A DNA stretch of 31,852 bases. It comes from a virus. The notes beneath the pieces were generated by a model. It was not told the DNA's origin and did not search any database. It worked only from the letters and a program-made list of their open reading frames with translations. A program made the position numbers and the translations under genes. Where the stretch lies: positions 1 through 31,852 of IMG/VR virus record IMGVR_UViG_3300000216_000011, one strand, 5' to 3'. Positions 2,984-23,463 of this stretch are shown here, piece by piece (position 1 is the first letter of the stretch; every line of letters begins with the position of its first letter).

Positions 2984-2984
2984 C

Positions 2985-7792: not shown

Positions 7793-9991
7793 TTATCTCC
7801 CTGTTAGTTTAGTATTCATTCCTGCGAATGTATTTGTTAATTTACTGAAAGTCTTCGTTCCCGGTCTTATGTTCTGTGCAGTCATTTCATCAAGAATTAC
7901 GTTAACACTCTTTCCACCTGCCCCATCATCTTTCTCTTCTGTCTTAGTTCCTTCTGGTGCTCCTATAACATTCACTGTCACGTTAGAACCACCTTGGAAA
8001 TCTTTGAACCTATCGAGTGGTATTAATGCTTCTGCTCCTGCCTCACCAAAAGTTCCGAATGTAGGTTTCGTAGCTACACCGCCCTCTGCTGCTTGTATGC
8101 CTAGCCCTGCATTATTTAGTTTGAAATTTGAAGGCAGACTATTTGGTACTGATGGAAGACCTGCATCGGGAGAACTATTGCCAAATTTAGAAAAGATATC
8201 ACCTATTAATCCTCCTCCTGAACCACCTCCTGCTGCACCAAACAAACCTCCCAAAATAGGCTGTACAAACTGTGTTTTAATAGCCATTTGTATGATCATT
8301 CTAGAGAATGATTCTAAGATATTTCCAAAGGTGACTTCTGCACCCATAACCATATCAGTCATAGTGTCAGTGAAATCATCGCCAAAATTCTTAGCTGCTG
8401 ATGCCATAGTTTGAAAAGTCTGATCGTTCTTTAATCGGATTTGCTGCAAGCCCTTTGTTCTGAACTCATCAAAATCTTTTTGGCTGATCAGTTTCTTACG
8501 AACCAATATTTCAAACTCTTGTGCCTCTCTCTGAAACTGCACAATTGCAAAATCTGTAGAACTTTTTGTAACCTTATCATAGTCAGATTTAAATCTTTTT
8601 ATTTCTGCACCAAAAGATACTAGGTCAGATTTTAAGTTCTCTGCTGCAGAGGAACCTGTGCCACCTTTAGGAATATCTTCTCTGCTAAGACCACCTCTGA
8701 GATCATTCATATTACCGCCAGAAGATATGAAAATCTCACTTTGTTTCTCTAATTCTCTCATACCCTCTCTGATTTTTTTTGCTTTCTCCATTTCCTTGAT
8801 GAAAGCATCCAAGCCAGCAATAGCTATTCTGAACCCAGGGAGGAATAATACGTTGAGCACACCTGAATTTTTTAATGATATAAAGATCTTAGCAAATAGG
8901 GTTAAGGATGAAAGCAACTCTCCACCAAATGCCAGTTTCAAGTCATTCATATGCTCAACAAAAACTTTCATCTGTTCATTGAAGAGTTTTTGAGCCTCCA
9001 TAGTTACTCTGTCAGTAATTCCTGCTTTACCCGCAATTTCAGCAGCATCTTCTTGTGCTTTAGCTTTTTGGTTCAGAATAGCTGTTGCTGCCCTCAATGC
9101 ACGAACATTTTTGAAAATGATACTTAATTCTTCTGCACTGGCATCCTTAAATTTTAAAATGGATTCTATAAGCTTACCATTTTTTATAGCTGTTGAATTT
9201 AAGGTAACACCGAATTTTTCAAAGGCTAATCTTTGTGAGTCTATTGACTGTGTCTGTGTAAATGTTTTTATCAATGCAGCAAATTGCACAGCAGTCTTAG
9301 GAGCACTTTTCGCTACCCTGCTAATCATTGCGAAACCTTGTCCCAAGTCTTGCAATGAAACACCTGCTGATTTGGCCACACCAATTACCGTGCCAATGTT
9401 TTTCGCTAAATCCTCTAAAGTCAATCTACCACGTTTTTGTGTGGCGAATAGGAAATCAGTTGCCTCTGTAGCATCCTTTAACTCATTCCTGTAAAGTTGG
9501 AAAGTTGAGATGGTGGCAGATGTTGCAGTAGTTACGTCAGTAAAACCTCCGACTGCTAATTTAGCAGAAGCTCTTAAAACATCCATAGCTTCTGATGCAG
9601 GAATTGTGGCATCAATGATATCTTTCAAACCAGTAGCTAAATCTATTTTTGATCTCCCGAACTCCTTAGATAAATCTATGACACCACTTCTGAATTCCCC
9701 AAATACTAAATTTGAGTTCTCCATAAGTGAATTGATTTTTCCTAGTGACTCTTCAAAATTACCTGCTTCTTTTACAGCAGAACCAAATATTTTTCCTACT
9801 AAAAGAGCACTTACCGCACCAAAGGCAATTACTGCAGACCTAGCCGAAAGAATAGACTGCTTCATAGTTTTGAAACCAGACGTACTCTTTTTGGTAAATC
9901 CCTGCACCTGTCCTTGAGCCTTTTTAACTGCTTTTTCAAGTTTAAAAGTTTGCCCATCAATTACAACTGTTAATGTTCCTATATTAGCCAT
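7793..9991 (-). CDS. Tail tape measure protein
   Basis: The 732-aa protein has the layout of TP901-type tape measures. A basic N-terminus is followed by a hydrophobic helix (SARSAVIAFGAVSALLVGKI, about residues 48-67). The core domain carries SLGKINSLM, IDLSKEFGRSKIDLATGL and TLEDLAKNIGTVIGVAKSAG. A long helical middle and a lambda H-like end follow (SFSRMIIQMAIKTQFVQPIL), then a Gly-rich segment and PTFGTFGEAGAEALIPLDRF. The protein spans the tail lumen and sets tail length; by the usual rule of about 0.15 nm per residue this would be roughly 110 nm. It is directly downstream of the G/GT chaperone genes, which bind it during assembly. Confidence 0.93.
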   Translation of the reverse strand: MANIGTLTVVIDGQTFKLEKAVKKAQGQVQGFTKKSTSGFKTMKQSILSARSAVIAFGAVSALLVGKIFGSAVKEAGNFEESLGKINSLMENSNLVFGEFRSGVIDLSKEFGRSKIDLATGLKDIIDATIPASEAMDVLRASAKLAVGGFTDVTTATSATISTFQLYRNELKDATEATDFLFATQKRGRLTLEDLAKNIGTVIGVAKSAGVSLQDLGQGFAMISRVAKSAPKTAVQFAALIKTFTQTQSIDSQRLAFEKFGVTLNSTAIKNGKLIESILKFKDASAEELSIIFKNVRALRAATAILNQKAKAQEDAAEIAGKAGITDRVTMEAQKLFNEQMKVFVEHMNDLKLAFGGELLSSLTLFAKIFISLKNSGVLNVLFLPGFRIAIAGLDAFIKEMEKAKKIREGMRELEKQSEIFISSGGNMNDLRGGLSREDIPKGGTGSSAAENLKSDLVSFGAEIKRFKSDYDKVTKSSTDFAIVQFQREAQEFEILVRKKLISQKDFDEFRTKGLQQIRLKNDQTFQTMASAAKNFGDDFTDTMTDMVMGAEVTFGNILESFSRMIIQMAIKTQFVQPILGGLFGAAGGGSGGGLIGDIFSKFGNSSPDAGLPSVPNSLPSNFKLNNAGLGIQAAEGGVATKPTFGTFGEAGAEALIPLDRFKDFQGGSNVTVNVIGAPEGTKTEEKDDGAGGKSVNVILDEMTAQNIRPGTKTFSKLTNTFAGMNTKLTGR

Positions 9992-9994
9992 ATG

Positions 9995-10324
9995 TTATTC
10001 TTCCTTTTTTATCATTGACCTCATCATGCCAACATGGTCTTCGGATGTTTGTTTCATTCTACTTCTCTTGCCCTCATATAATTCAGGCATAAAATCAAAT
10101 GGTGTAAACTGTTCTTTTCCTTCTTTTAATTTCAAGTTGATCAGTAAGCTACAATACCTACCAATTCTACTCCACTCAGCTTCCTCACCAAATGGTTCTA
10201 CTGCGTAGTAAATTTCCCAATCACTAAGTTGTTTCGAAGTCAGACCCTCCATTAAATAATCTGGATGTGGGAATCCTAAAGCCAAACAAAGTCTGAATTT
10301 AATAAGGTTGCTTGGCTTCTTTAG
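9995..10324 (-). CDS. Tail assembly chaperone, T-like part, made by -1 frameshift
   Basis: The recognisable domain (LTSKQLSDWEIYYAVEPFGEE, about 96 aa, ending near 9995) matches the lambda T/DUF4035-type minor tail chaperone. It has no ATG; the nearest possible start is a TTG at 10285. The same frame stays open upstream to the A AAA AAC site at 10324-10330 in the preceding gene. A -1 shift there would join the two frames into a product of about 224 aa (115 from the G-like gene, 13 linker residues LKKPSNLIKFRLC, 96 from this domain). This matches the G/GT arrangement of lambda. The fusion recruits tail tube subunits to the tape measure and is absent from the virion. The start coordinate given is the first codon after the shift. 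Confidence 0.82.
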   Translation of the reverse strand, partial: LKKPSNLIKFRLCLALGFPHPDYLMEGLTSKQLSDWEIYYAVEPFGEEAEWSRIGRYCSLLINLKLKEGKEQFTPFDFMPELYEGKRSRMKQTSEDHVGMMRSMIKKEE

Positions 10325-10330
10325 TTTTTT
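10279..10330 (-). promoter_or_regulatory. Programmed -1 ribosomal frameshift signal (slippery site plus hairpin)
   Basis: The heptamer A AAA AAC is at 10324-10330 in the correct phase, two codons before the TAA stop of the G-like gene. About 5 bases downstream a hairpin can form. The 5' arm is at 10308-10318 (minus-strand AAGCCAAGCAA) and the 3' arm at 10279-10289 (TTGTTTGGCTT): 11 pairs with one G-U, and one more G-U possible outside. The loop is 18 bases. Heptamer, spacing and stem together fit a classic frameshift stimulator and explain why the downstream gene lacks a good start. It is seen directly in the sequence; activity is inferred from the conserved phage G/GT mechanism. Confidence 0.82.
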
Positions 10331-10668
10331 ACTAGCTCTTCAACTTCTTCTTTTTTAAGTCCTGCAAGTCTTTGTCCTGCTTCGAATAATTTATCCATTG
10401 CAGAAGCTGATTTCTTTCCTAGATCAATCAAATCCATTTTATTAAACATAAGCTTTCCTTTTTCGTCAACTACTGTAGCTGCTACGAATTTAGCTCTTAT
10501 GTTTTCAAGGTCTGCTTGATCACCACTTATCAACTGCTTCTCAAATTCATCTCTCTCTTTAGCTGTGATAGTTCTTACCTGTACGTCACCACCCCACTCT
10601 TCAACGTGGACTGTTTCAGTCTTTAAATCTTGTGCTTGCATTATTTGTTCTTTTGTTAAAAATCCCAT
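10321..10668 (-). CDS. Tail assembly chaperone, G-like
   Basis: The 115-aa protein has a mixed strand/helix layout: TVHVEEWGGDVQVRTITAKE, then FEKQLISGDQADLENIRAKF, VAATVVDEKGKLMFN and a Lys/Glu-rich C-terminal helix. This is the pattern of phage tail assembly chaperones of the lambda G class. It lies between the tail tube gene and the tape measure, the expected place. The ATG has an AGGAG at about 9 bases upstream. The last codons contain the slippery A AAA AAC, so a fraction of ribosomes should continue into the T-like frame. Confidence 0.85.
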   Translation of the reverse strand: MGFLTKEQIMQAQDLKTETVHVEEWGGDVQVRTITAKERDEFEKQLISGDQADLENIRAKFVAATVVDEKGKLMFNKMDLIDLGKKSASAMDKLFEAGQRLAGLKKEEVEELVKN

Positions 10669-12094: not shown

Positions 12095-12472
12095 TTACCT
12101 CGTAGAAGTTGCCTCTGTCATAAAAGCTATCCTTTGAAACTTGTCTGCTCTTAATGACGGTATTTTAGTTCTTGCTTTCACTTCCAGAGCATTTGTCACA
12201 TTCTTAGGATTGGTCTCATCTATGGCAGAAGCTATGTCAGTTAATGATCCTAAAAATAACCAATCATTAGGTTCTACATCCTGTCCTACATATGCAACGT
12301 GACTACTTTCTAATCTCTGACCTGTAGTAGTGGTGTACATCTTTTGCTTAATTTCCCACCTAGCAGATATCTCAACTGGTGCAGTAAACGTAGCACCGCC
12401 ATAACCATCTCTAGCTGAGAAAGCCCAATAGACTAATGTTTGATTGTGTCCTCTTGTTATATGTGATGTCAT
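12095..12472 (-). CDS. Head closure / neck protein
   Basis: The 125-aa protein is beta-rich: QTLVYWAFSARDGYGGATFT, APVEISARWEIKQK, GQRLESSHVAYVGQDVEPND and WLFLGSL. This matches small phage neck proteins that close the connector after packaging. It overlaps the upstream connector gene by one base (12472) and lies 2 bp before the gp10-like gene. Assignment is by pattern and neighbours; no catalytic motif is expected. Confidence 0.72.
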   Translation of the reverse strand: MTSHITRGHNQTLVYWAFSARDGYGGATFTAPVEISARWEIKQKMYTTTTGQRLESSHVAYVGQDVEPNDWLFLGSLTDIASAIDETNPKNVTNALEVKARTKIPSLRADKFQRIAFMTEATSTR

Positions 12473-12858
12473 TACGCATCCTCTGCTCTGCTAATTGCTA
12501 GAATTGGTTTGAATCTTCCTATTCTCTTTCCTAAATTTGATAATGTTCCTGATGTATCAAGTGCTAATGCTGTCTGTCCATATAGAGTAGAGTTTAAAAG
12601 TTTCTCATTTGAAGCACCAAAGAATGTAGATTTGGTTTCTCCTACTTCTTGTACTTTCTCTTGAGGCTCTAAACTACATTTGAAAAAATGTGCTGCTAAC
12701 CATCTCTCTATTTCTTTCAGTAAAGATGTACTCGTTATTTTAGCAGGAGTTGACAACGTAGTTGTTACCAGTATATTCGCTGCTGTAATAAACGGTGTGA
12801 AACTAGAAACACTTGTATCTAATATCGCTGCTACTTCTGCATCTGTCACACGTGCCAT
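12472..12858 (-). CDS. Head-tail connector protein (gp6-like adaptor)
   Basis: The 128-aa protein is mostly helical: VTDAEVAAILDTSVSSFTPF, ITAANILVTTTL, SLLKEIERWLAAHFFKC, then LNSTLYGQTALALDTSG. The element IERWLAAHFF followed by TLYGQTALALD is typical of phage adaptor proteins that bind below the portal ring. It is the first of three connector genes. In most related phages such a gene follows the capsid genes directly. Here about 9.6 kb of accessory genes separate it from the major capsid gene. Confidence 0.78.
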   Translation of the reverse strand: MARVTDAEVAAILDTSVSSFTPFITAANILVTTTLSTPAKITSTSLLKEIERWLAAHFFKCSLEPQEKVQEVGETKSTFFGASNEKLLNSTLYGQTALALDTSGTLSNLGKRIGRFKPILAISRAEDA

Positions 12859-12859
12859 G

Positions 12860-13555
12860 TTATCCTATCCTTCCTTCGTCAAATGCTTTCGCTATAAGTT
12901 TGTCATTGACGATAGTTTTTTGTCTTTTCATAGAATCAGAAATCCTTTTTTTATGTTCCTCCGAAAGTTTTCGGCCTTTTTTAGCTAAAGACATCTTTTT
13001 CTTAGATTCATCAGACATTTTCTTTCCTTTATGTGCAGAAGACATTTTTTGTTTTGTCTCTTCTGTATGGACAAAATCTTTTTTACTTAAGACCCTCTTT
13101 TCAACATGCTCAACAGTTTGCTTTTTCCCTTTAAAGAATAAAGATAAGATTCCCTTGGTTTCCTCAGTATGTTGTTTGTTGAAGAAAGGATTTTTATTGC
13201 CAAATCTATTTTTTACTTTATCTGATATCTTTTGTCTAGTCTCATCTGTATGCTTTATGCCTAACCTAGAACCTGCTGTTTTGCATAAATTAAAAAGAGG
13301 AGAATCTTTTTCATAATGATCAAGAAATCTTTGCTCTTGAAAAATTAATTCTGATGGCTCATAATAACAAAGTATCTTAAATTTAAAATTCTCTTTTCCG
13401 TATTTATTATAAGCATTTTGAAGATATTTGTTAGCATGTTTATTTCTTTTTAATTCCGAATAATGTTTATTTTTTCGTCTTTTTAAATCTACAGCACTCC
13501 CTATATACTTCTTACCATTAGAATTACATACAATTTCATAAATACCACTATTCAT
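12860..13555 (-). CDS. Free-standing GIY-YIG homing endonuclease with NUMOD3 repeats
   Basis: The 231-aa protein carries the GIY motif (MNSGIYEIV), KKYIGS as the YIG motif (residues 17-19), the Arg-rich helix DLKRRKNKH (catalytic Arg near 26-27), and Glu in IFQEQRFLDHY (near 74). From about residue 98 it has several NUMOD3-type DNA-binding repeats (KHTDETRQKISD, HTEETKQKMSSAHKGKKMSD, SEEHKKRISDSMKR). This is the build of Seg-type homing endonucleases, which cut intron- or gene-lacking alleles to spread themselves. Its ATG overlaps the sulfotransferase end by 8 bp and has AGGAG upstream. It lies 1 bp before the connector gene, at one border of the accessory block. Confidence 0.93.
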   Translation of the reverse strand: MNSGIYEIVCNSNGKKYIGSAVDLKRRKNKHYSELKRNKHANKYLQNAYNKYGKENFKFKILCYYEPSELIFQEQRFLDHYEKDSPLFNLCKTAGSRLGIKHTDETRQKISDKVKNRFGNKNPFFNKQHTEETKGILSLFFKGKKQTVEHVEKRVLSKKDFVHTEETKQKMSSAHKGKKMSDESKKKMSLAKKGRKLSEEHKKRISDSMKRQKTIVNDKLIAKAFDEGRIG

Positions 13556-14255
13556 GACAAACTCCTACAATGCGATTGTTTACAACTATCTTACCCTCGT
13601 TCCACAGATTTGGAGAAACAAATTCTTTTACTTCATCTTCTTTCCATTCCAAGCCTAGCCATTCAACAACTGATTTAGCTTCACTGAACTGTCCATCAAT
13701 CATCTCTTGAGGCCAAACTTCGATAAGGTCTAAATCAGCATGCAGCATCTCATTAAATCTATTTATGTGTTGGTGAATCCAACCCTGCCATCCTTGTTCT
13801 GTATCGAAAGCTCTCATGAAGCCTGTTCTCATACAGGAGTTTACTATCTCTTTACTTCTTCTTCTTACTATAATCCATTTAGCATCTGGGAAAGCTGCAT
13901 TCCATAAAGGCCACATCAAACACATCTTTGCACCCTTGTAGAACCAAGTGTCATCTTCTCCCACACCCTGATATCTGAGAGTGTCTTCTACTTTCTTTCT
14001 CCACTCTTCACCATCTAAATCCTTGAATAACTTTACATCTGGTAAAGGATGCTGTGCCATAGGATCAACTCCTAGAGTTTGTAGAAGAGGTTTAACTAAA
14101 TCGTTTCTAATTTCAGCATTCTCAAACATGCCTTTCTTATTGTATATTGTTGCAGGACTTGTCTGACCGCCTTTTGCCCCACATATATTCATGACTCCTG
14201 CAGTCATTGATGTACCACTTCGTGCACAGCCAGTTATCAAGATTGGTGATTTCAT
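13548..14255 (-). CDS. Sulfotransferase family protein
   Basis: The 235-aa protein has the P-loop-like 5'-phosphosulfate binding motif GCARSGTSM (residues 9-17). The 3'-phosphate binding segment is KWIIVRRRSKEIVNSCMRT (residues 126-144, with Arg131-133 and Ser140). The family moves sulfate from PAPS to hydroxyl groups of sugars or proteins. It belongs to an accessory block with glycosyltransferases, so a glycan acceptor is likely, though the substrate cannot be read. The leader resembles that of the G-like chaperone gene. It is close in length to short sulfotransferases and has no membrane segment. Confidence 0.85.
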   Translation of the reverse strand: MKSPILITGCARSGTSMTAGVMNICGAKGGQTSPATIYNKKGMFENAEIRNDLVKPLLQTLGVDPMAQHPLPDVKLFKDLDGEEWRKKVEDTLRYQGVGEDDTWFYKGAKMCLMWPLWNAAFPDAKWIIVRRRSKEIVNSCMRTGFMRAFDTEQGWQGWIHQHINRFNEMLHADLDLIEVWPQEMIDGQFSEAKSVVEWLGLEWKEDEVKEFVSPNLWNEGKIVVNNRIVGVCHE

Positions 14256-14278
14256 ATTAAGACTCCTTTGATTAAGGT
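14256..14278 (-). promoter_or_regulatory. Leader of the sulfotransferase gene, near copy of the G-like gene leader
   Basis: The minus-strand leader ACCTTAATCAAAGGAGTCTT before the ATG holds AGGAG as ribosome binding site. It matches the leader at 10669-10691 at 22 of 26 positions including the start codon. A partly similar TTAACCATA also precedes the small gene at 21770. Confidence 0.5.
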
Positions 14279-14286
14279 TTCTTTCT

Positions 14287-15282
14287 TCATGTTATTGTCC
14301 TTATGTTATCTTTTCTGTAAAAGTAAAAATCTTCTTTGTTCTCTTTGAAGTTCTTAACAGGCTTTGTATATCTGTAATCTGTTGCCTTATCAAAAGCTTT
14401 ATTAATACCTCCGCAAATGTTTTGCAAGTCACACTCTTTACAAGAACCATTTTTACATTCTACATTGTTACTTGTACGCTTTCCCCAATTATCAAAAGCT
14501 CCTACAGTTTTTGGTTCTATGTTGTAATCCCATTCATATGGATCAAAGACTACATGACGATCATTACAAATACATCTTCTATATTCTTCTGCTACTCTAC
14601 ACATAGGGTAGTACCTAACATTAACTCCTACTCCATTATCTTCTAAATGCTTGATAGCTTTGTTAAGCAATGGTTCTACCACATCTAAGTCTGCTGCTAC
14701 TTTTCCTGTTTCTATGGACTTGTCTTGCCATTCATGGTGAGGATTCATATTAATGAAATTCACTATTCTAGGTTTATGATGAACAAGTTCTTTAGCTATA
14801 GCAAAAATCTCTTCTTGATTATAATGATTTATAACACAATTAAATCTAATCGGTATCCCTGCTGTACGCAAACTGAATAAGAAATCTAATTGTTTTAAAT
14901 AAGCATCCTTATAATTAGTTATGAAATTATGTGTCTCTTCTAAACCATGTCTAGATACTAAGAACTCATCTACTCCAGAACTTACTAAATCACGAACTGT
15001 TTTCTTATTAACTATTCCATTTGTTATGATACAGGTTTTAACATCTTTAGAAAGAGCGTAGGCAACCACCTCACAAATGTACTTGTACATTGTAGGTTCT
15101 CCCCCTGTAACATCCATATAATTATTACCCCTAGCAATTCCATCATTAATCACTCCCTTTGCTTTGTCAAGACTCCAATCATACTCTTTCCATTTTTCAT
15201 AAGTATGTAAGTAATAACAAAATTTACATTTAATATTACAACTTCTAGATGAATCTAACACAAATCGTTTAGTCGGTTCCAT
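14287..15282 (-). CDS. Radical SAM protein with SPASM-like C-terminus
   Basis: The 331-aa protein has the radical SAM cluster motif CNIKCKFC (Cys15, Cys19, Cys22), which binds a 4Fe-4S cluster and S-adenosylmethionine. GGEP (residues 60-63) is the SAM-contacting motif. The C-terminal part holds Cys228, 237, 239, 276, 281, 284 and 290, including SCKECDLQNICGG, in the manner of a SPASM/twitch auxiliary cluster domain. Such enzymes carry out radical modification of peptides, sugars or alcohols. It overlaps the glycosyltransferase-like gene upstream by 14 bp and has GGAG before its ATG. The substrate is unknown; context favours a role linked to glycan or peptide modification. Confidence 0.87.
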   Translation of the reverse strand: MEPTKRFVLDSSRSCNIKCKFCYYLHTYEKWKEYDWSLDKAKGVINDGIARGNNYMDVTGGEPTMYKYICEVVAYALSKDVKTCIITNGIVNKKTVRDLVSSGVDEFLVSRHGLEETHNFITNYKDAYLKQLDFLFSLRTAGIPIRFNCVINHYNQEEIFAIAKELVHHKPRIVNFINMNPHHEWQDKSIETGKVAADLDVVEPLLNKAIKHLEDNGVGVNVRYYPMCRVAEEYRRCICNDRHVVFDPYEWDYNIEPKTVGAFDNWGKRTSNNVECKNGSCKECDLQNICGGINKAFDKATDYRYTKPVKNFKENKEDFYFYRKDNIRTIT

Positions 15283-16141
15283 TGCTTAACTCCTCCAATA
15301 AATGAGGATGTAGTTGGAACACCTCTGGTAAATCCTCTAAGGTTATCTCTTTTATACCTGCCCAATGCTTCTGGAAATGTGTTGCAGGATGAAAACCTCT
15401 TTCCCATTGTCCTTCTAAAGGTTCTGGAATTTTCTTCCACACATTCTCAGTCCAATCATCTAAGTCAACTATTTTGTTTCCTTCATAGCCATTTGAATTT
15501 CTTATCTTTTCTAATACAGTATTGAAATCTCTTCGCACATAAACAAAGTGATGAAACCACACAGGCTTTCTAGGAATAATGTCAGTTACCATTTTCTGCA
15601 TGAAATTCTCTTGACAACATCTATGATTCTTCCCTAAGTCTTTTCTACGAGCACTTACAAAGATTGTCGGAGCCATTACTTCTTCTGGTTCCACTCTGTA
15701 GAATGGACTCTTTATGTAAGTATAAAGTCTAGCTCTATAAACATAGTCATGATTCTCATTTCTCTTTAGGTACTGAATAGCCTGTGTTAGATTGTAATCA
15801 TCCCAAACTTCATCAGTGTCGATTAACATTACCCAATCAGCATTGAAGTTATCTTGTATGAATCTGTAACCTTCCATACACTGATGGAACTGATCTCCTG
15901 TATTGCAATCAATAGAATAAATCTTGTCATCAACATCTAACCATTTCAGAGAATTGATCACTGATTTACAAGTGTTACCATACTTATCTACATTTCCTCT
16001 TAGACCATGATCCCAAGCCTTCTCAGAGTTAACAAACACAATGTAATCAACATGATTATAGATACTCCTAACCATAGCTTCTATGAATTCATCTCCTCTG
16101 AATGTTTTGCAAAGGGCTGCTATTTTTGGTGTCTTACTGAT
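15269..16141 (-). CDS. Glycosyltransferase-like protein (GT-A, DxD), probable non-AUG start
   Basis: From the first ATG (16075) the protein is 268 aa and has a GT-A metal-binding motif WVMLIDTDEVW (Asp86, Asp88). YIVFVNSEKAW, typical of a GT-2-like N-terminal strand, lies close to that ATG. The frame upstream reads SKTPKIAALCKTFRGDEFIE, which looks like a real N-terminus missing from the ATG-initiated form. No ATG, GTG or TTG lies in that extension. An ATC at 16139-16141 sits 6 bases after AAGGA, so I place the start there, inside the preceding gene. The cassette context suggests it adds a sugar to a shared glycan. The enzyme class is inferred from the fold motif; the start is tentative. Confidence 0.7.
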   Translation of the reverse strand: MSKTPKIAALCKTFRGDEFIEAMVRSIYNHVDYIVFVNSEKAWDHGLRGNVDKYGNTCKSVINSLKWLDVDDKIYSIDCNTGDQFHQCMEGYRFIQDNFNADWVMLIDTDEVWDDYNLTQAIQYLKRNENHDYVYRARLYTYIKSPFYRVEPEEVMAPTIFVSARRKDLGKNHRCCQENFMQKMVTDIIPRKPVWFHHFVYVRRDFNTVLEKIRNSNGYEGNKIVDLDDWTENVWKKIPEPLEGQWERGFHPATHFQKHWAGIKEITLEDLPEVFQLHPHLLEELSNGTD

Positions 16142-18132
16142 GTGTTTTCCTTTCCTTCATGGAATCCACAACACTTAGGATTCGTACATGGATAATCTGT
16201 TATATCTCTATTCTCGATTCTCTTTATTAATTCTCTTCTCTTTTCACCGTTAAAGATATCTAATATGTGTTCATCCATTATGTTTCCACATGTCATCTCA
16301 TCTTGGTGATCAGCATAACAATTAGAACTCCAAACAGCTTTTCCATTTCTTCTTACCCATAAAGTATGATTTTTTTCTACTGTTATATCATAAACAAAAC
16401 CATCATAATGAACTTGTTTGATACCATTATCAATAAGAGAATTGATCTTTATACTGTTCCGTTCCTCTTTAAAGATAGTAACAATCCATTGAGGCAAGTT
16501 CATTTTAGTCTTATCAAAAGGATTTTGCCTTGGCTCCTGAAGAACTATATTCGCACCATAGCCACATTTATAAGCTATCTCTTGGACATCATCAGCCAAT
16601 TGTTTCGAAACTGTATAATAACGATGACCAGTTTTATAACTTGTACCATCCCCTTTAATCAATGTGCCTAACAAAGCTTCTAAATGTCGTTTTGGTAATT
16701 GTTTAATATCGTTAGGTATGAATTTATCAAAAGATTTACCAAATTGATCAACATAATCATAAAACTTTTTATCATTGAACTTCCATGAACTCCCATCTTT
16801 GATAGGATGGAAACCACATTTTTTTATGAGTACACCAATTTCTTCATAAAAAGCAGGTTTTTTTTCTGGTGATTGGCTAATCCCCACAGACCATCTATCA
16901 CGGACATTTCCATTAATAGAACCATCTTTTCTTACTCTTTTATCTACAGATTTGTTATTATAATGATACCCTTCTGATAGATACCAGCCTAAAAGTGCCA
17001 AGAAATCTATGCTGTATTTCTTTGTAAGTTCTTCATCACCATCCCAATCAAAGAATCTCGGTATAAAGTAGTTTCCTTTTTTGAAATTCTGTATCTCTTT
17101 CCATACATAACCATCTTTTAATTCTTTAGGTTTATTTGCAAAGTTACTCTCATATGAAGCCTTTGGCTCAAGAGGGAATTTATGTTCAGGAGTAACTTGC
17201 AGGTCAATATTTCTGTTTTTTATCTCATACAAATCTCCTTCAAATTCATATCTTTGTGTATCAGTTATTTTTGACCATTCAGTTTCTTTATTAGCTTTTC
17301 TAGTTAATATAGTCTCTTTCCCTGTTAAATCCTTAAAAAACTTCCAACCTTCATCGGTAAAAACTTCCGTATCTTCAACGTAACAACAAACCTGTACGTC
17401 ACCGTTAGGACATATCCAAGTAACAGTTTTTATTATATCTAGTTTAGGACAAGCTGTTTCTGTATCCTTTGGAGCTTTTAATCTTTCTCCCCATAGACAA
17501 TGACTGATACTTGTGATTGATAAAGGTGAACTATTGTCTTTCTGGAAATAGTTTATTATCTCACCTTCTTCACATTTCAGTTTGCTTAGTTCCTCATCTG
17601 TATAGATATCTCTAGCAGGTCTCATACCTAGAACCCTTTGACACTTTGCATAATATTTTCTTATATCATTATAAAGTATGACAACTGGTATCTTTTTATT
17701 TATAGATAAGAAGTATTTAAGGTTATCAAATACGTTATCCATATTAAGATTACTGTTCTTTTCAAAAACTGTCCTGTCAAGACTTTCTAGTCTTACATGA
17801 ATCCTATCGAACAAATCTTCTTCTACTATTCTATCTGCTTTTTCTTTATCTAACATAGAGAAGTTATTATAAGTCCACCTTACCTTATCTGGGAAAGTGT
17901 CCTTTAACTTCTTAATGTAGTCTAGGTAATTTGGATTTAAAAATGTCTCTCCATTACCACTTGTTTGTATCATTGTAAAATCTACATCTTTTAATTGTTC
18001 TAATAATGTATTGAATACATCCCACTTCATGAAGAAGCTGTTACCACATCCATGAGGTCTGGAACATATAATGCATTCTGCACCACATATATTCGACATA
18101 TTTATTTCTATTTCATAAATCGTTTTATTCAT
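16120..18132 (-). CDS. Radical SAM/SPASM protein interrupted by an intein
   Basis: The 670-aa precursor begins with the radical SAM motif CGAECIIC (Cys16, 20, 23). The host protein runs to Cys249, then a 355-aa intein (residues 250-604), then resumes at Cys605. Joined, the exteins give a 315-aa protein reading GDVQVC then CYADHQDEMTCGNI. This is the SPASM-type pattern in which two adjacent cysteines lead into GNI and a C-terminal helix. The end has further cysteines (PCTNPKCCGF) that could hold an auxiliary cluster. Without splicing, the cluster site would be broken. Its ATG overlaps the glycosyltransferase gene upstream by 4 bp (18129-18132). The substrate is unknown. Confidence 0.88.
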   Translation of the reverse strand: MNKTIYEIEINMSNICGAECIICSRPHGCGNSFFMKWDVFNTLLEQLKDVDFTMIQTSGNGETFLNPNYLDYIKKLKDTFPDKVRWTYNNFSMLDKEKADRIVEEDLFDRIHVRLESLDRTVFEKNSNLNMDNVFDNLKYFLSINKKIPVVILYNDIRKYYAKCQRVLGMRPARDIYTDEELSKLKCEEGEIINYFQKDNSSPLSITSISHCLWGERLKAPKDTETACPKLDIIKTVTWICPNGDVQVCCYVEDTEVFTDEGWKFFKDLTGKETILTRKANKETEWSKITDTQRYEFEGDLYEIKNRNIDLQVTPEHKFPLEPKASYESNFANKPKELKDGYVWKEIQNFKKGNYFIPRFFDWDGDEELTKKYSIDFLALLGWYLSEGYHYNNKSVDKRVRKDGSINGNVRDRWSVGISQSPEKKPAFYEEIGVLIKKCGFHPIKDGSSWKFNDKKFYDYVDQFGKSFDKFIPNDIKQLPKRHLEALLGTLIKGDGTSYKTGHRYYTVSKQLADDVQEIAYKCGYGANIVLQEPRQNPFDKTKMNLPQWIVTIFKEERNSIKINSLIDNGIKQVHYDGFVYDITVEKNHTLWVRRNGKAVWSSNCYADHQDEMTCGNIMDEHILDIFNGEKRRELIKRIENRDITDYPCTNPKCCGFHEGKENTSVRHQK
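16321..17385 (-). mobile_element. LAGLIDADG intein inside the radical SAM gene
   Basis: The 355-aa intein starts at Cys250 (CYVEDTEVFTDEGWKFFKDL, block A). It has block B LQVTPEHKFPL (His317), two LAGLIDADG motifs (LALLGWYLSEG near 378-388; LEALLGTLIKGDG near 484-496), block F VYDITVEKNHTLWV and block G AVWSSN, ending at Asn604 before Cys605. Both endonuclease motifs keep the expected acidic residue (Glu, Asp), so homing activity looks intact. The residue before the terminal Asn is Ser rather than the usual His. The element sits between two adjacent cysteines of the host SPASM motif. Confidence 0.92.
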
Positions 18133-18767
18133 TTAGGCTGTGTCCAATCTCGCTGATTTGTCACTGTTGTATCGTCAGGGTATAAACTTAAGTATAATTT
18201 CTTATTGTGTTCAAAGTACTTACCACCTTGATTCTTTTGAATATTGTTATGAATCAACTCACAATCATTATTAATCATTATTCTTTTATTGTTAAAGTGA
18301 ATGTTAATTCTGTTCATGTAATCAGTATCTTCATAACCACTTCCTATAAAACCTTCATTGTATCTGAGACTGTTTCTTCTTACCGCCAAACATGCTGTCG
18401 GGATTCTGTAATGTCCTTTATAAGTGCTAGGCAGTACATCGTGTGTTCCTGAATGCTGTACTTTGTTGTCTCCCATCATGTGACCCCTAGTACCGTCTGG
18501 ATTCATTAACCTAGCAGACACAATAAGTATCATTTGGTTATGCATCATAGGTCTGATTAAATCCTCAACCCATCCCTCATAGAACCCTTCCATATCGTCA
18601 TCCATCATTATATAGATGTCAGACTTAACTTCATTCAATCCTTTATTCCTGTTAGCACTTGCAGAGTCATCAAGTCCTGTGAAAATTAAATTATGCTCTT
18701 TAGAAATATTTTCTTCTATCTCTGATGTGTCAAAATCTTTGTTGTTCGTTACTAATATTATATCCAT
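18129..18767 (-). CDS. Glycosyltransferase family 2-like protein
   Basis: The 212-aa protein has a GT-A fold signature: a short N-terminal strand (MDIILVTNN), the element ASANRNKGLNEVKSDIYIMM, and DDD (residues 56-58) as the metal/nucleotide-sugar motif. GFIGSGYEDTDYMNRI holds a likely catalytic Glu-Asp pair. It is short for the family and lacks a membrane segment. It is 4 bp overlapping with the radical SAM gene and directly adjoins the next glycosyltransferase gene. Donor and acceptor sugars cannot be read from the sequence. Confidence 0.8.
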   Translation of the reverse strand: MDIILVTNNKDFDTSEIEENISKEHNLIFTGLDDSASANRNKGLNEVKSDIYIMMDDDMEGFYEGWVEDLIRPMMHNQMILIVSARLMNPDGTRGHMMGDNKVQHSGTHDVLPSTYKGHYRIPTACLAVRRNSLRYNEGFIGSGYEDTDYMNRINIHFNNKRIMINNDCELIHNNIQKNQGGKYFEHNKKLYLSLYPDDTTVTNQRDWTQPK

Positions 18768-19475
18768 TTAATGCTGATATCCTTCTGATAATCCCTCACC
18801 TATGTGCTCAATATAAATTTTATCTACTGGATTAGCTCTTTTAAATCCTAATTCCAAATACCTTAAAGCATGTGCTCTATCCCACCTTCTAGATATGTTT
18901 GAGTGACCCTCATCTAATTCCCCAATTATTTCTAATGTTGGTATGTGATGGAGACCGGGATTCCAACTATATCCAAACCAATTAGTATCACAATCTAGTA
19001 TACATGGTGAACGATGTTTTACTAATGGAGGCTCCATTACAGGATCATACTTATGAAGGTTGTACATTAAATTTCCTTCTCTTCCATACAGGACATTTCC
19101 CCTTTTATTTCTCAGTATTACATTTTTAATCCTCCTATCATCATTGGCTATATCAAATAAATTACCTATGAAAAACGGCACTAAAAACATCCAATCATCT
19201 TCACAATGAAAAAACCATTCAGTCTCCACCATGTCTATGATCTTATTCAGACTTACAGGTTGCCCTCTGCGATCTGCAGTATTCTGCACAATCTCAAATA
19301 CTGGATAAAGTTCCTTGATTTCATCGAGTTCTTCTTGAGGACTTCCATCGTCTACAAGTATCCATCTAGTTATCAAATCTTTGTCCATGCACTTCTTCAT
19401 AAAACTTTTCATTGTTTTTTTAAACATTTCAAGTCTTTTATAAGTAGTTATAGTGAATGTAACTTCAGGATACAT
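18768..19475 (-). CDS. Glycosyltransferase family 2-like protein
   Basis: The 235-aa protein starts MYPEVTFTITTYKRLEMFKK, the standard opening strand of family 2 glycosyltransferases. It has WILVDDGSPQEEL (VDDGS at 41-45) and the metal site FFHCEDDWMFL (Glu92, Asp93, Asp94). These enzymes transfer a sugar from a nucleotide donor with inversion. It overlaps the next gene upstream by 11 bp and ends just before the next start, so translation is coupled. The substrate is unknown. Confidence 0.88.
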   Translation of the reverse strand: MYPEVTFTITTYKRLEMFKKTMKSFMKKCMDKDLITRWILVDDGSPQEELDEIKELYPVFEIVQNTADRRGQPVSLNKIIDMVETEWFFHCEDDWMFLVPFFIGNLFDIANDDRRIKNVILRNKRGNVLYGREGNLMYNLHKYDPVMEPPLVKHRSPCILDCDTNWFGYSWNPGLHHIPTLEIIGELDEGHSNISRRWDRAHALRYLELGFKRANPVDKIYIEHIGEGLSEGYQH

Positions 19476-20145
19476 ATTTTTGAACTTTCTCCTCTAATAC
19501 TTTTTTACTGTTCTGGAATCTAATTGAATTCTCATCCTTATCTTTGTAGTTCTCTGGTTTCCTAGATTCATGCCACAGGTGAAACCACATATCATATAAT
19601 TCTTTTCTCTTTATTAAAATTTCTTTTTCTAACAGTTTGCTCTTGAATGAAATATCTGAATCCTCTCCACCCCATCCAGTGTACGACTCATCATAAAACT
19701 TCTCACCAAAACAATCTTTGAATATTTCTAATGTTTGCTTGGTAATAGTTATTTGTGAACAACCTTTGAAACTTGCTCCTTCTCCCCTGAAACACTTCTG
19801 CATATTCTCAACTATATACTCGGACTGTTCTTTAGGTAGTTTCTGCCCATAAGAAACAATGTAATCGTATCCTGCATGAAAAGCTATTTCTATTGTGCTG
19901 AAAAATTGATAACTGTAAATCATATCGATATCAAATACACAGAGCACATCAAAATCTTGCCTCATATCAGCTATTGCTATATTTAATAATTTAGCTTTAT
20001 TAAATTCCTCATCTGTACCTCCTACTAAGAGATACTTAATGTCATGATCTTCTTTATAATGCTCTATCAGTATTTCTATATAACGTATAAAAGTTTTCTC
20101 ATGATCATCTCTATTCTGATTAACTGCAATAACATTTATTTTAAT
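19465..20145 (-). CDS. GT-A glycosyltransferase-like protein, probable AUU start
   Basis: The protein has FDVLCVFDIDMIYSYQFF with an Asp-x-Asp metal motif and TGWGGEDSDISFKSK, resembling the galactosyltransferase C-terminal type (catalytic Trp-Gly-Gly-Glu-Asp). No ATG precedes the conserved start. A TTG at 20166 has a weak ribosome binding site, whereas an ATT at 20143-20145 lies 7 bases after AGGAG and gives MKINVIAVNQNRDDHEKTF, a natural-looking N-terminus. I give the ATT start. It overlaps the stop region of the upstream gene, so coupled translation is likely. The start is tentative; the class is firmer. Confidence 0.75.
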   Translation of the reverse strand: MKINVIAVNQNRDDHEKTFIRYIEILIEHYKEDHDIKYLLVGGTDEEFNKAKLLNIAIADMRQDFDVLCVFDIDMIYSYQFFSTIEIAFHAGYDYIVSYGQKLPKEQSEYIVENMQKCFRGEGASFKGCSQITITKQTLEIFKDCFGEKFYDESYTGWGGEDSDISFKSKLLEKEILIKRKELYDMWFHLWHESRKPENYKDKDENSIRFQNSKKVLEEKVQKYVS

Positions 20146-20780
20146 GCGTACTCTCCTTGTAGCCAATTAACATCTCTAGGTCTAGGGTGTCCGTGAAAAA
20201 CAACTGCATCAATTAACGGATGCACACCATCTTGGCAATTATGTTTGTATGAAGCCACATTTACATAATCATTTACAGATAATATTTCATTTGTCTTTAA
20301 GACTGTATCTGTAATGTACTCCTGATCCCATTTATCATATTTTTCAATTGTTTCTTTATTAATACCAGTTAACAGATGGCTAAAGTCTCCATTCCATCCC
20401 ATTATAGAAGAATTGAATCTACGATCTTTATGGAATCCTTCCATCATATAAAAATGAGATTTCCCATTAGACCTAAAAGGTGAAAAGGTTACAGCTTTGA
20501 AAAAATCTGTTAATTCATATTTAAGTATTATATCTAAATCAAAATATATTACTTGTCCCTTCATTTTGAATACTTCTAATTTCGACCAGTAAGATTCTAG
20601 ATCAGTTGTTAACGATTGTATATTGATTCCATACAAAGAAAATCTATCTATCTTGTCAGTAAAAACTGTAAATTTAAAATCAAAATTTACTATCCTATCT
20701 TTCAGATTCTCATGGAGCTTATCAACGTAGTCCCAATCAAAATCTCCTCCTGATTTCAAGCAGCATACTATTTGCAGCAA
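20136..20780 (-). CDS. Glycosyltransferase-like protein (DxD)
   Basis: The 214-aa protein starts with TTG after a GGAGG-type site about 10 bases upstream. It opens with MLQIVCCLKSGGDF and has the metal site VIYFDLDIILKYEL (Asp81, Asp83), RRFNSSIMGWNGDF, and a C-terminal VVFHGHPRPRDVNW with a His that could bind metal. This is the general build of retaining GT-A (GT8-like) enzymes. It overlaps the DUF115-like gene by 13 bp. No donor or acceptor can be assigned. Confidence 0.78.
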   Translation of the reverse strand: MLQIVCCLKSGGDFDWDYVDKLHENLKDRIVNFDFKFTVFTDKIDRFSLYGINIQSLTTDLESYWSKLEVFKMKGQVIYFDLDIILKYELTDFFKAVTFSPFRSNGKSHFYMMEGFHKDRRFNSSIMGWNGDFSHLLTGINKETIEKYDKWDQEYITDTVLKTNEILSVNDYVNVASYKHNCQDGVHPLIDAVVFHGHPRPRDVNWLQGEYALK

Positions 20781-21445
20781 AGTTTTATAGCCTCCTCTAG
20801 TTCCATTTTTTCAAAACATTCTATCTTGCTCTCTAACGATGTGTTAATTATCCTGACTCTGAGTGAATCAGCATCTAATTTTATTTCTGCAAATGCTTGT
20901 AGCATTCGTTCATAAGGTGTGGTCGCTATCTGATTAGGTATCACATGTGCATTGTGCCAATTATCTGCACCATCTGCTTTTGCGAACATATCAAACCCAA
21001 TCAAGACTATGTTTTTAGCACCTAAGTGTACAGCTAAATTAATAGCTGCAGCACCAGATGATTTATTCCATTTAATGATCTTGGGGTCTTTGTGAATCCC
21101 AAAACCATTTTCTCTATCCACAGTCTTTATCCAAGCGATTTTATTTTGTGGGTGACAACAAACTACTAAACCTGCAAAGTGAACAATTTTATCTTCATTC
21201 CAATCTAACCATCTAGTATCACCGTAGAAACAGATGTCAACCCAATCTCCTAATTCGAAAGCGTTGTTGACACCTATAACACGTTGATTATGAATACAAG
21301 CTAGATCATCAGAAATAGATTTCTTGATAACATCTTTTGTATCTTCATTCCATTGCAAACCAGTTTTGTTGAGACTTTCACCACCACCTATGATAAACAC
21401 AGTAGAATTCGGCCACAACTTCTGAACAGTCCAACGATCAGCCAT
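20768..21445 (-). CDS. DUF115-like / motility accessory-type protein
   Basis: The protein has a Rossmann-like N-terminus STVFIIGGGESLNKTG, then VIGVNNAFELGDWVDICFYG, SGAAAINLAVHLGAKNIVLI and a final helix INTSLESKIECFEKMELEEA. This resembles DUF115/6-hydroxymethylpterin pyrophosphokinase-like and motility accessory factor proteins, which are linked to nonulosonic acid or glycan work. A longer frame starts at 21514. An ATG at 21445 with AGAGG five bases upstream gives MADRWTVQKLWPNSTVFII and overlaps the upstream stop by 8 bp, so I prefer it (225 aa). A glycan role follows from context; activity is not certain. Confidence 0.72.
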   Translation of the reverse strand: MADRWTVQKLWPNSTVFIIGGGESLNKTGLQWNEDTKDVIKKSISDDLACIHNQRVIGVNNAFELGDWVDICFYGDTRWLDWNEDKIVHFAGLVVCCHPQNKIAWIKTVDRENGFGIHKDPKIIKWNKSSGAAAINLAVHLGAKNIVLIGFDMFAKADGADNWHNAHVIPNQIATTPYERMLQAFAEIKLDADSLRVRIINTSLESKIECFEKMELEEAIKLCCK

Positions 21446-21770
21446 TAGCCCTCTGTGCTTTAATAAGCTTTTTGGCTTCTTCATGTGACAAGCATTCATC
21501 GTTGAGCTTATCACCTGTTTTTTCGCTGATCACATCGTACTGCTTATCCGCAACTTTCCTTATTACAAAACCATATACAGGTTCTTGTTTTACTTCTTGT
21601 TCTTGTATTAGAATAAACTTATCTCTAGCACTACCGAGTTCGCATTCTTCACATACAAGTAAATCACCACCTTTAAGTAATCTGTCATTAAGAACGGAGT
21701 CTTTCCCACCTCTCACAACAGCTTTCTTCCAGTAGTGTTTCTTTCCTTCTTTAACTTGAAACTTTGGCAT
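21438..21770 (-). CDS. Small hypothetical protein, head-module type
   Basis: The 110-aa protein is basic at the start (MPKFQVKEGKKHYWKKAVV), then LLKGGDLLVCEECELGSARD, DKFILIQEQEVKQEPVYGF and a Lys/Glu-rich helix. Small proteins with a similar start and a GD-containing turn often follow capsid genes and may be virion proteins. It has a clear AGGA before its ATG and lies at the border between capsid genes and the accessory block. I cannot assign a function. Confidence 0.5.
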   Translation of the reverse strand: MPKFQVKEGKKHYWKKAVVRGGKDSVLNDRLLKGGDLLVCEECELGSARDKFILIQEQEVKQEPVYGFVIRKVADKQYDVISEKTGDKLNDECLSHEEAKKLIKAQRANG

Positions 21771-21834: not shown

Positions 21835-22368
21835 CTATGTCTTGACACGTTTGTTACTGTTCTGTTCTTCCCATGTTGCCCACCTACAATTTTCAGGTTC
21901 ATAATTGCCATCATTATTTTCCCTGTCTAATGTTAATCCTTCCTTGTAGGTGGTTAATAAATCATCTTCAAAGGCTTGATAATCATTTTTCCATCTGCTG
22001 CAAACTTTGATACCTCTACCGCCATAGTTAGGATATGATCGGTGGTTTTTTCTGTAACACCTTTCCTTCATACCTCTCCAAGTACCGTAGAGTGGTCTTG
22101 TCTGGAGAAAAACATCTTTACTTGTCTTCTTTTTCTCAGGATTTCCAACATCCCATTTATTTTTCGTGTATGCTCTTGATAGTTTAGAGCATTCCTTAGA
22201 ACAAGTCTTATGGAAACTGTTTTTAGCCTCAAACTCTGTACCACATACTGAGCAATTTCTTATGCCCAAATGTAAACTGCCAGTACGGGTAAGTCTCTCA
22301 TAATGTTTTTGACACAATCCTTTAGCAAGGAATTTATTATCACAACCTTCTACTTTACAAACTTTCAT
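21835..22368 (-). CDS. Free-standing HNH endonuclease
   Basis: The 177-aa protein starts with a Cys/His-rich segment (MKVCKVEGCDNKFLAKGLC, then KHYERLTRTGSL) and a second zinc ribbon (CSVCGTEFEA ... CSKEC). The C-terminal half is a known phage type: YGTWRGMKERCYRKNHRSYP, NYGGRGIKVCSRW, then LTLDRENNDGNYEPENCRWA. Members are homing-type nucleases inserted between genes. It follows the major capsid gene, with a hairpin in the spacer and its own AGGAG. It borders the accessory block opposite the GIY-YIG gene. Confidence 0.88.
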   Translation of the reverse strand: MKVCKVEGCDNKFLAKGLCQKHYERLTRTGSLHLGIRNCSVCGTEFEAKNSFHKTCSKECSKLSRAYTKNKWDVGNPEKKKTSKDVFLQTRPLYGTWRGMKERCYRKNHRSYPNYGGRGIKVCSRWKNDYQAFEDDLLTTYKEGLTLDRENNDGNYEPENCRWATWEEQNSNKRVKT

Positions 22369-22470: not shown

Positions 22471-23463
22471 TTAACTGATGTGAACGATACCGCTTCTGTT
22501 AGCCTGAGTAGACCTAATCTGCGGAACCATGATTGTCATCACTTTAAAGTTCACTTGCATTCCACCTTCAGTTTCCCACTGTACTGTTGTAAGCGGAAGA
22601 CCTTCAATCATTCTAACAACTGTGCTTTGCATAGAAACCATCACTATGTTATTCGCAGTCAAGAAATCAGAAACTTTAATACCTTGCAGTCCTTCAAGCT
22701 CAAGCAATCTACTTCTGATTGACCTTGGGTACTGAGTACTAAATTCGTCATCAAGAACTGACTCGTAAGCAGTTGGTATATAAAGCATAAACGGCCCGAA
22801 ATGTCTATCATTAATCAGAGCCTGTTTCGCAGTAATAACATCTGTTAGAATCTCTTGTCCTGTTTTACCAGAAGCATCCCAGTTCTGTGAAAGCGTTTGA
22901 GTATTTCTATCAGGATGATCAGTGTATCCGTAAATGATACCTCCGTTTGATCCCATAGAGTATGTACTCAGACCGTTGAACAGAACACTTTCTGCTTTTT
23001 CAGCAACTTTTCTTGAAGCTTCTTCTGCCATTGAAAGGTCAAGTGGCTGACTAGCATTATGGTTTCTAGAAGCTTCGATTTCTCTAATACTGAAACCAAA
23101 ATCTCTATGAATAATAGGCAAAGGTAGATAGTTCGTATCGAACTCTTGTCTATCTTTAGCACTTCTACTCACACCATCCATGTTAACTTCTGCATCATCA
23201 GTATCACTAGCATCCTGCCATTGTAGTACCGTACTTCCCAATCCACCACCAGTTCTAACAAGTCCTCTTTCGATAAGGTCATTAACTCCACCTAGTCTCC
23301 TGTGTGCTTCCTGTAGAACTACAGTGTCTATATCCTTCCATTCATCATATGTAAGGACAGCGTTTGTTCTTAAAGAAGATACATTCATGCCATTATGTAG
23401 AAGCTTTTCAGCAACTCCACCATAGCCTGTACCTGCGTTAATTACATCAATGTTTACATCCAT
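22471..23463 (-). CDS. Major capsid protein (HK97 fold)
   Basis: The 330-aa protein has the HK97-fold capsid pattern: YDEWKDIDTVVLQEAHRRLG, a helix with SSLRTNAVLTYD upstream, LPLPIIHRDFGFSIREIEA, VAEKAESVLFNG, and the C-terminal QVNFKVMTIMVPQIRSTQ. It lacks a recognisable delta domain, and its maturation protease is the separate gene at 23954. Its ribosome binding site is TAGGGAGAG in a leader similar to those of tail tube and decoration genes. It lies between the decoration protein and the HNH gene. Confidence 0.9.
   Translation of the reverse strand: MDVNIDVINAGTGYGGVAEKLLHNGMNVSSLRTNAVLTYDEWKDIDTVVLQEAHRRLGGVNDLIERGLVRTGGGLGSTVLQWQDASDTDDAEVNMDGVSRSAKDRQEFDTNYLPLPIIHRDFGFSIREIEASRNHNASQPLDLSMAEEASRKVAEKAESVLFNGLSTYSMGSNGGIIYGYTDHPDRNTQTLSQNWDASGKTGQEILTDVITAKQALINDRHFGPFMLYIPTAYESVLDDEFSTQYPRSIRSRLLELEGLQGIKVSDFLTANNIVMVSMQSTVVRMIEGLPLTTVQWETEGGMQVNFKVMTIMVPQIRSTQANRSGIVHIS

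Follow-up and report, generated by a model that had tools for sequence, protein, structure and literature searches.

A Predicted Glycan Island with Conserved End Genes and a Variable Interior in the Late Head Operon of Uncultured Phages

Introduction

Bacterial O-antigen and capsule loci carry swapped cassettes of co-oriented glycan genes between conserved flanks. Glycan genes linked to virions have also been described in viruses: mycobacteriophages encode glycosyltransferases and bear glycans on their capsid and tail-tube proteins (Freeman et al. 2023, as cited in PMC12619734), and Chlorella and giant viruses encode multi-enzyme glycan pathways linked to the capsid (see PMC9614988). In pelagimyophages, a hypervariable host-recognition region beside the tail-fibre genes holds glycosyltransferase (GT) and radical SAM cassettes, which have been read as O-chain modifiers, and diverges gradually (PMC7029224). 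Two further precedents concern single components of the locus described here: one Maf flagellin glycosyltransferase takes both CMP-Neu5Ac and CMP-Kdo to flagellin Ser/Thr (PMC11339370), and islands flanked by homing endonuclease genes (HEGs) have been described in phages (PMC10448857).

The locus that we analyze lies in a window of 31,852 nucleotides (the whole of the stretch examined, from IMG/VR record IMGVR_UViG_3300000216_000011). Like bacterial O-antigen and capsule loci, it has conserved flanks, swapped cassettes and co-oriented genes, but it is phage-encoded and carries no flippase, polymerase or export genes. With the mycobacteriophage system it shares phage-encoded glycosyltransferases, here linked to virion genes by their position between the capsid gene and g16; compared with that system as summarized in the citing article, it differs in its conserved first and last gene, in an interior that can be swapped, in encoding a sulfotransferase as well as radical SAM enzymes, and in being known from its genes alone. 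The Chlorella and giant virus pathways, in the account cited, belong to eukaryotic viruses. The pelagimyophage region is likewise found in environmental phages, whereas the present island sits between capsid gene and g16, is bounded by a DUF115-like gene and the sulfotransferase gene, and is replaced wholesale.

Results and Discussion

Layout of the Island

All nine cassette genes were confirmed on the minus strand (as are all features given below) between the major capsid gene and g16, as an earlier note on this DNA had it: a DUF115-like gene, five GT-A-like glycosyltransferase genes, two radical SAM genes and a sulfotransferase gene, all co-oriented between capsid and connector. The left anchor is the major capsid protein gene (MCP; 22471..23463; phrog_771, E 1e-28; 57 IMG/VR relatives) and the right anchor is g16 (12472..12858), presumed to be a head-tail connector gene; in relatives with empty sites the capsid gene is followed directly by g16. 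Between the capsid gene and the island lies g26 (21438..21770), a small conserved gene with no PHROG match whose homologues occupy the same place in relatives. Counted from the sulfotransferase gene to g26, the spacings are 31, -14, 44, -4, 0, -11, -31, -13 and -8 bases, so that an overlap by a few bases describes most junctions (-31 to 0 bases) but not the gaps of 31 and 44. The same layout is seen in dozens of independent contigs, which excludes chance. We consider it almost certain that the block is a glycan island.

The cassette is, as had been noted, flanked by two endonuclease genes, and both are homing-endonuclease insertions: an HNH gene between the capsid gene and g26 (21835..22368; phrog_374, E 1e-40) and a GIY-YIG/NUMOD3 gene between the sulfotransferase gene and g16 (12860..13555; TIGR01453, E 1e-34). 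We rejected the pair as fixed boundaries since the junctions differ in each relative (the HNH gene is missing from the capsid-g26 junction in L009 and L005, and the GIY-YIG/NUMOD3 gene from the sulfotransferase-g16 junction in L009). The block resembles HEG islands (PMC10448857) in its flanking HNH and GIY-YIG endonucleases and wholesale exchange, but its fixed boundary is formed by the DUF115-like and sulfotransferase genes.

The Conserved First and Last Genes

The first gene of the island encodes a Maf- and CstII-like transferase (DUF115; 20768..21445; phrog_4603, E 1e-32). Its start, originally placed at 21514, was corrected to the ATG at 21445, leaving an 8-base overlap with g26, as in relatives. 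A profile match links it to CstII (E 1e-5), and its AlphaFold2 model (pLDDT 94) finds CstII (1ro8) as its best Foldseek match in the PDB (E 1.5e-4), with a TMq of 0.52 that denotes moderate similarity. Scoring 28.3 bits against the 34.6 demanded by the Pfam MptE-like family (PF01973), the protein is classed only as Maf/CstII-like. Both profile and fold align it with the CstII-like central domain of the Maf flagellin glycosyltransferases (PMC11339370); unlike these, it is a single 225-aa domain without the extra N- and C-terminal domains, falls below the Pfam cut-off and sits in a phage head operon. The KdsB found in some island relatives would fit the use of CMP-Kdo, and initiation from a CMP-ulosonate is possible, though somewhat less likely than not.

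The last gene, ST (13548..14255), very probably encodes a PAPS-type sulfotransferase, a prediction drawn from its score over the Sulfotransfer_3 cut-off (32.2 bits vs. 27), its PAPS-site motifs and its fold. In the RSGTS-type loop, R12, S13 and S16 are invariant in 67 relatives, as are R132 and S140, and G14 and T15 are nearly so. The AlphaFold2 model (pLDDT 92) matches STF1 better than any other single fold (E 1.3e-5), and human tyrosylprotein sulfotransferases also rank near the top (E about 1e-4, TMq about 0.60). Conservation of ST is on a par with that of the capsid protein (median identities 52% and 50%), and APS-kinase-like genes, whose matches lie below the equivalog cut-off, abut it in five of five loci.

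Interior Enzymes and an Intein

Of the five glycosyltransferases, GT1 (20136..20780; phrog_1962, E 1e-13) is of GT-A type with a DLD motif; it is recurrent in the island, and its D83 is invariant in an alignment of 21 relatives. GT2 (19465..20166) is GT7-like, just over the cut-off of Pfam Glyco_transf_7N (E 3e-6), and GT3 (18768..19475) and GT4 (18129..18767) belong to the GT2 family (Glycos_transf_2, E 4.5e-7 and 1.6e-7, respectively). GT5 (15269..16075), of GT-A type, matches Glycos_transf_2 below the cut-off (E 1e-3) and has a homologue of 36% identity in a block of the unrelated phage L145, where GT4, GT3, GT5, rSAM1 and rSAM2 precede the portal gene. A sulfotransferase-like stretch picked out by eye in L145 (7373-7996) has no Pfam or NCBIfam match and was not counted.

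Both radical SAM genes reported earlier are present, although an intein in one had been overlooked. The 670-aa reading frame of rSAM1 (16120..18132) comprises a 315-aa enzyme and a 355-aa LAGLIDADG-type intein (16321..17385; Cys1 to Asn, with Cys at +1), which scores over the intein_Cterm cut-off and weakly against Intein_splicing and LAGLIDADG_3. It splits the SPASM motif between its two neighbouring cysteines (PNGDVQVC|CY) and is a precise insert relative to the uninterrupted allele of L009 (94% identical); the L145 allele (about 50%) is uninterrupted as well. Splicing is predicted, with Ser rather than His as the penultimate residue. The CX3CX2C cluster motif reads CGAECIIC in rSAM1 and CNIKCKFC in rSAM2 (14287..15282; Radical_SAM, E 5e-18; cysteine-rich C-terminus), and is conserved in L145. 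The SPASM domain is just over the cut-off in rSAM1 and clearly over it in the L145 copy; rSAM2 gives no SPASM match. For rSAM2 the closest solved relative is the cytosylglucuronate decarboxylase BlsE (profile E 3e-14), and SkfB and PqqE are among its further matches; the rSAM1 C-terminus comes closest to BtrN. A viperin-like defence role for rSAM2 was rejected (53.8 bits, cut-off 180), as were radical SAM proteins of Campylobacter phages as its relatives (~27% identity; phage CP220 has no comparable adjoining GT/ST block).

Fixed Ends and Swapped Interiors across Relatives

The search in other phages that the earlier note had called for places the island beside the capsid gene: each of the 37 ST lineages in which a capsid gene is visible has DUF115 between that gene and ST, and g16 follows ST in 59 of 61. 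Judged from these comparisons, the island has kept its place in the head operon even between deeply diverged phages, with DUF115 first and ST last; on a capsid tree of 60 tips, 3 changes account for the presence of ST, vs. 18 with shuffled labels. Nearly all of the relatives' records are fragments.

Exchange of cassettes in the interior is, on sequence grounds, close to certain. L005/L067 are close to the window outside it (DEC 81%, MCP 95%, g26 79%, DUF115 89%, ST 89% and g16 93% identity) yet share none of its interior enzymes, and their interior matches phages whose capsid proteins are just 45-53% identical. Relatives' interiors hold glycosyltransferases, methyltransferases, epimerases, GDP-mannose dehydratase-like enzymes, a transketolase, GT29 and radical SAM enzymes, and the island can be as small as DUF115-GT1-ST (L006) or DUF115-ST (L151). 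The latter, a prophage of Euryhalocaulis caribicus, is an independent case, in which DUF115 (9396-10001) and ST (9998-10612) are adjacent and lie near terminase and portal genes; the L145 block is another. The island products look soluble: none of 262 proteins from 34 islands has three or more hydrophobic segments, the pattern sought for polytopic membrane proteins.

That the block holds no nucleotide-sugar synthesis genes is true within the window; relatives encode some, in the same slot or beside the portal gene. The CMP-Kdo synthetase KdsB, over its cut-off, lies upstream of the portal gene in four of four carriers. Since most ST-bearing records lack both KdsB and APS kinase, the links to these two enzymes rest on few loci. 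The supposed reliance on host donors is therefore only partly right: no gene for making them was seen in the window, but CMP-Kdo synthetase, epimerases or an APS-kinase-like gene do occur in some relatives.

Proposed Function and Alternatives

On balance, we favour the hypothesis that DUF115 initiates O-glycosylation of a virion protein, with the interior genes building up the glycan and ST sulfating it; the island, set in the late head operon, would then be a phage serotype locus. In the cytoplasm, DUF115 would use a CMP-activated acidic sugar such as CMP-Kdo to attach the first residue to Ser/Thr of the virion protein; GT1-GT5 would extend the glycan, rSAM1 (active only once its intein is spliced out) and rSAM2 would alter a sugar en route, and ST would transfer sulfate from PAPS, yielding a strain-specific, negatively charged particle coat. 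The original proposal of a sulfated or otherwise modified glycan gains from the other glycan enzymes and APS-kinase-like genes of relatives, and the data suggest that these uncultured phages coat their particles with sugars that can be varied and are probably sulfated, much as O-antigens vary in bacteria. A more specific form is offered tentatively and is somewhat doubtful: a large group of uncultured phages would have an O-antigen-like serotype locus for the particle, in which a Maf-like enzyme attaches Kdo or another ulosonic acid to a head or tail protein as the start of an acidic O-glycan, ST sulfates the glycan, and the interior is exchanged through recombination within the conserved first and last genes.

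The target had been left between virion and host surface. Modification of a host surface polysaccharide during infection, excluding other phages, would parallel the pelagimyophage cassettes (PMC7029224) and suit the LPS-like KdsB, epimerases and heptosyltransferase-like GT9 domains of relatives, but we think it unlikely: the island has no flippase, polymerase or lipid-carrier transferase and no polytopic-looking product, genes that neighbour the capsid gene in a late head operon come late for superinfection exclusion, and the E. caribicus prophage, too, has DUF115-ST near its head genes. The absence of polytopic proteins, the stable head-operon position and the Maf/CstII-like DUF115 fit a cytosolic or virion acceptor better, and the acceptor is probably a virion protein. 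Direct sulfation of such a protein by ST, for example on tyrosine, with the glycan genes a separate function in a shared operon, would agree with the tyrosylprotein sulfotransferase fold matches and with the retention of ST, conserved like the capsid protein, even in the minimal islands; it is nevertheless improbable, as STF1 is the top-ranking fold match (the fold leaves the acceptor unsettled) and the presence of DUF115 between capsid and ST in every lineage scored argues for a single pathway.

Hypermodification of phage DNA, with hydroxymethylated bases built on by glycosyltransferases, radical SAM enzymes and ST, has precedents in the diverse glycans that phage glycosyltransferases add to DNA (Pyle et al. 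2024, as cited in PMC12619734) and in a proposal of GT/ST-based nucleotide modification for viromes (PMC10829341), and the island enzymes all appear cytosolic. We consider it quite improbable: a thymidylate synthase homologue occurs in none of 11 large ST-bearing records vs. 9 of 14 controls (the records being fragments), a 5mC methylase in one of 15 records, and a TET/JBP match in none of the 15, although the control was equally silent. To our knowledge, DNA-modifying gene sets do not usually lie between capsid and connector genes, which we also count against it. Peptide maturation is a common role of radical SAM/SPASM enzymes, and the SkfB and PqqE matches of rSAM2 would suit the modified peptide suggested earlier, ribosomally synthesized and then glycosylated by the island's glycosyltransferases. 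We give this idea hardly any credence: with cassette gaps of at most 44 bases there is no coding-strand room for a precursor in the window, no maturase family cut-off was reached, the closest solved relatives act on sugars, and the pair travels with GT3, GT4 and GT5, as in L145.

Among MCP, DEC, g16, g15, g13, PRO and POR, the candidate acceptor residues tracking ST (MCP S198 and DEC S123) are confounded by ancestry, so we make no claim for either. Late timing, rather than the target, may also be the reason why the genes lie in the head operon.

Significance

If the acceptor is a virion protein, the island would vary particle surface chemistry by cassette exchange, a strategy undescribed for phages in the literature searched, and would bear on the survival, sticking and recognition of particles in water and sediment. 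Phage glycosyltransferases and sulfotransferases are usually filed as auxiliary metabolic genes, and their role here becomes directly testable. Regardless of function, ST defines a sulfotransferase family of at least 244 viral contigs that is missing from the 50,697 deposited phage records searched and from PHROGs. E. caribicus JL2009 is a cultured strain in which the two-gene version is open to study.

Conserved island ends and exchanged interiors

The window, a 31,852-base IMG/VR virus record, has its capsid (phrog_771), decoration, portal and terminase genes on the minus strand at 22–31 kb (PHROGs). From the capsid gene to g16, the presumed head–tail connector gene, the order is g26 (a small conserved gene), DUF115 (a Maf/CstII-like transferase), the glycosyltransferase genes GT1–GT4, the radical SAM gene rSAM1, GT5, rSAM2 and a sulfotransferase gene (ST). 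The gene set that an earlier note placed between the capsid and connector genes is borne out by Pfam, NCBIfam and PHROGs matches. Cassette genes are spaced by −31 to +44 bases, with homing endonucleases at both ends (HNH at one, GIY-YIG at the other), and cassette GC is 31–36% versus 36–40% in the surroundings.

Among 57 loci from a capsid-protein scan, a large subset has a capsid–g16 gap of ~340–680 bases with one small ORF, as do the cultured Brevundimonas phages MaInes and StAshley; elsewhere this slot reaches 11.5 kb. An ST-alignment scan gave at least 244 confirmed relatives, the best 80 of which represent 66 lineages after collapse at 95% ST identity. The arrangement beside the capsid gene, which the earlier note had proposed to seek in other phages, recurs: DUF115 lies between capsid and ST in all 37 lineages with a visible capsid gene (starting 347–576 bases past it in 35), and g16 follows ST in 59 of the 61 with sequence past ST (within 200 bases in 48). 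Because the loci come from searches with capsid or ST sequences, the latter limited to the best 80 matches, these counts hold for this phage group rather than for all ST carriers. The smallest island is DUF115–GT1–ST (L006/L007), and 261 of 262 ORFs in 34 complete islands share one orientation.

On a 60-tip capsid tree, ST presence requires 3 changes versus 18.2 with shuffled labels, indicating that the island ends are stably inherited while the interior is exchanged. L009 keeps the window's gene set at 67–94% identity, plus one methyltransferase. L005/L067 (one contig) has flanks 79–95% identical to the window, but shares no interior enzymes with it. The L005/L067 interior matches those of L013, L015, L017 and L104, with cargo up to 73% identical; the capsid proteins of these phages are just 45–53% identical to that of L005/L067. 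Homing endonuclease positions vary among relatives, and in other phages such genes have been suggested to drive exchange (PMC10448857). The interior common to L017 (12177–19057) and L005 (12045–20210) comprises Zn-ADH, split transketolase, SDR and methyltransferase–GT fusion genes.

Predicted functions of the island enzymes

Judged by Pfam matches of representatives, the interior content is a glycan repertoire: methyltransferases, GT2, GT9, GT-D, GT29, SDRs, epimerases, GDP-mannose dehydratase-like proteins, Zn-ADH with split transketolase, FkbM and rhamnosyl O-methyltransferase-like proteins, and additional sulfotransferases and radical SAM/SPASM enzymes. The island of L148, a deltaproteobacterial MAG contig, also holds a bAvd-like gene and a reverse transcriptase gene (RVT_1) at 2908–4576, the components of a diversity-generating retroelement.

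DUF115 matches CstII sialyltransferases by profile (E 1e-5) and as the best match of its model (pLDDT 94). The same domain occurs in flagellar Maf enzymes, one of which glycosylates Ser/Thr of flagellin with CMP-activated Neu5Ac or Kdo (PMC11339370). Four ST-bearing records, and none of 15 ST-less ones, encode a CMP-Kdo synthetase (KdsB), always immediately upstream of the portal gene; three of the four pass the TIGR00466 cut-off and the fourth has a Pfam match. The visible part of the window has no KdsB. Together, these matches, the Maf precedent and the synthetases suggest that DUF115 may start a glycan from a CMP-ulosonate. DUF115 (20768–21445) also matches phage P1 PmgO/PmgP-region morphogenetic genes and Caulobacter phage proteins (27–34% identity).

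In ST, the PAPS loop and 3′-site Arg/Ser are invariant or nearly so among aligned relatives, and its model (pLDDT 92) matches mycobacterial STF1 first and human TPST1/2 next. APS-kinase-like genes, scoring under the apsK equivalog cut-off, touch or directly neighbour ST in all five loci that have them (L103, L106, L124, L126, L148) and occur in none of the 15 ST-less records. L159 has an APS-kinase-like/nucleotidyltransferase-like fusion (796–1515) immediately upstream of ST. ST relatives number seven in GTDB genome contigs and zero in both 50,697 phage records (E 1e-3) and PHROGs.

Two gene sets recur beside head genes in other contexts. A prophage of the cultured alphaproteobacterium Euryhalocaulis caribicus JL2009 has adjacent DUF115 and ST (L151, 9396–10612) near terminase and portal genes. 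In L145, whose portal (phrog_156) and capsid (phrog_334) differ from the window's, homologues of GT4, GT3, GT5, rSAM1 and rSAM2 are grouped a few genes ahead of the portal gene, so the radical SAM genes belong with GT3–GT5. The best solved relative of rSAM2 is the sugar-acting decarboxylase BlsE; the rSAM1 C-terminus weakly matches BtrN.

Candidate roles of the island

We somewhat favour a cytosolic pathway decorating a virion protein; sequence comparison pointed to no acceptor. Modification of the host surface is unlikely: a simple Kyte–Doolittle scan finds at most two hydrophobic segments in any of the 262 island proteins, hence no sign of a flippase, polymerase or lipid-carrier transferase. 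Direct protein sulfation by ST seems about equally improbable. DNA hypermodification is less probable again, as no hydroxymethylating enzyme was found in any of 11 large ST-bearing records, though these are fragments and the TET/JBP control was silent. The modified peptide raised previously on account of the radical SAM genes is very improbable, no precursor having been found on the coding strand.

GT-encoding phages, mycobacteriophage virion glycosylation and viral sulfotransferases classed as auxiliary metabolic genes are all known. The literature searched, which took in few subscription papers, describes no island next to a capsid gene that is framed by DUF115 and ST and exchanges its interior.

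An intein in rSAM1 and an apparent one in TerL

The 670-aa rSAM1 holds a 355-aa insert (16321–17385) that begins with Cys, ends in Ser-Asn before a Cys and splits the SPASM motif (VQVC/CYADH). It scores over the intein_Cterm cut-off, with weak N-terminal and LAGLIDADG matches (Pfam, NCBIfam), and is absent from the L009 allele (94% identical) and the L145 copy (50% identical). By these features the insert is an intein, which corrects the earlier account of rSAM1; the auxiliary cluster site would form only after splicing, if it splices as inteins do.

TerL is broken by an apparent split intein (30415–31449) into terminase parts at 29463–30527 and 31153–31852, the putative N half ending ORF 31153–31770 and the C half starting ORF 29463–30527, with an HNH endonuclease gene (30488–31156) between them. 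L005 has an empty site at this position, and TerL of L002 and L003 carries a second, LAGLIDADG-like intein.
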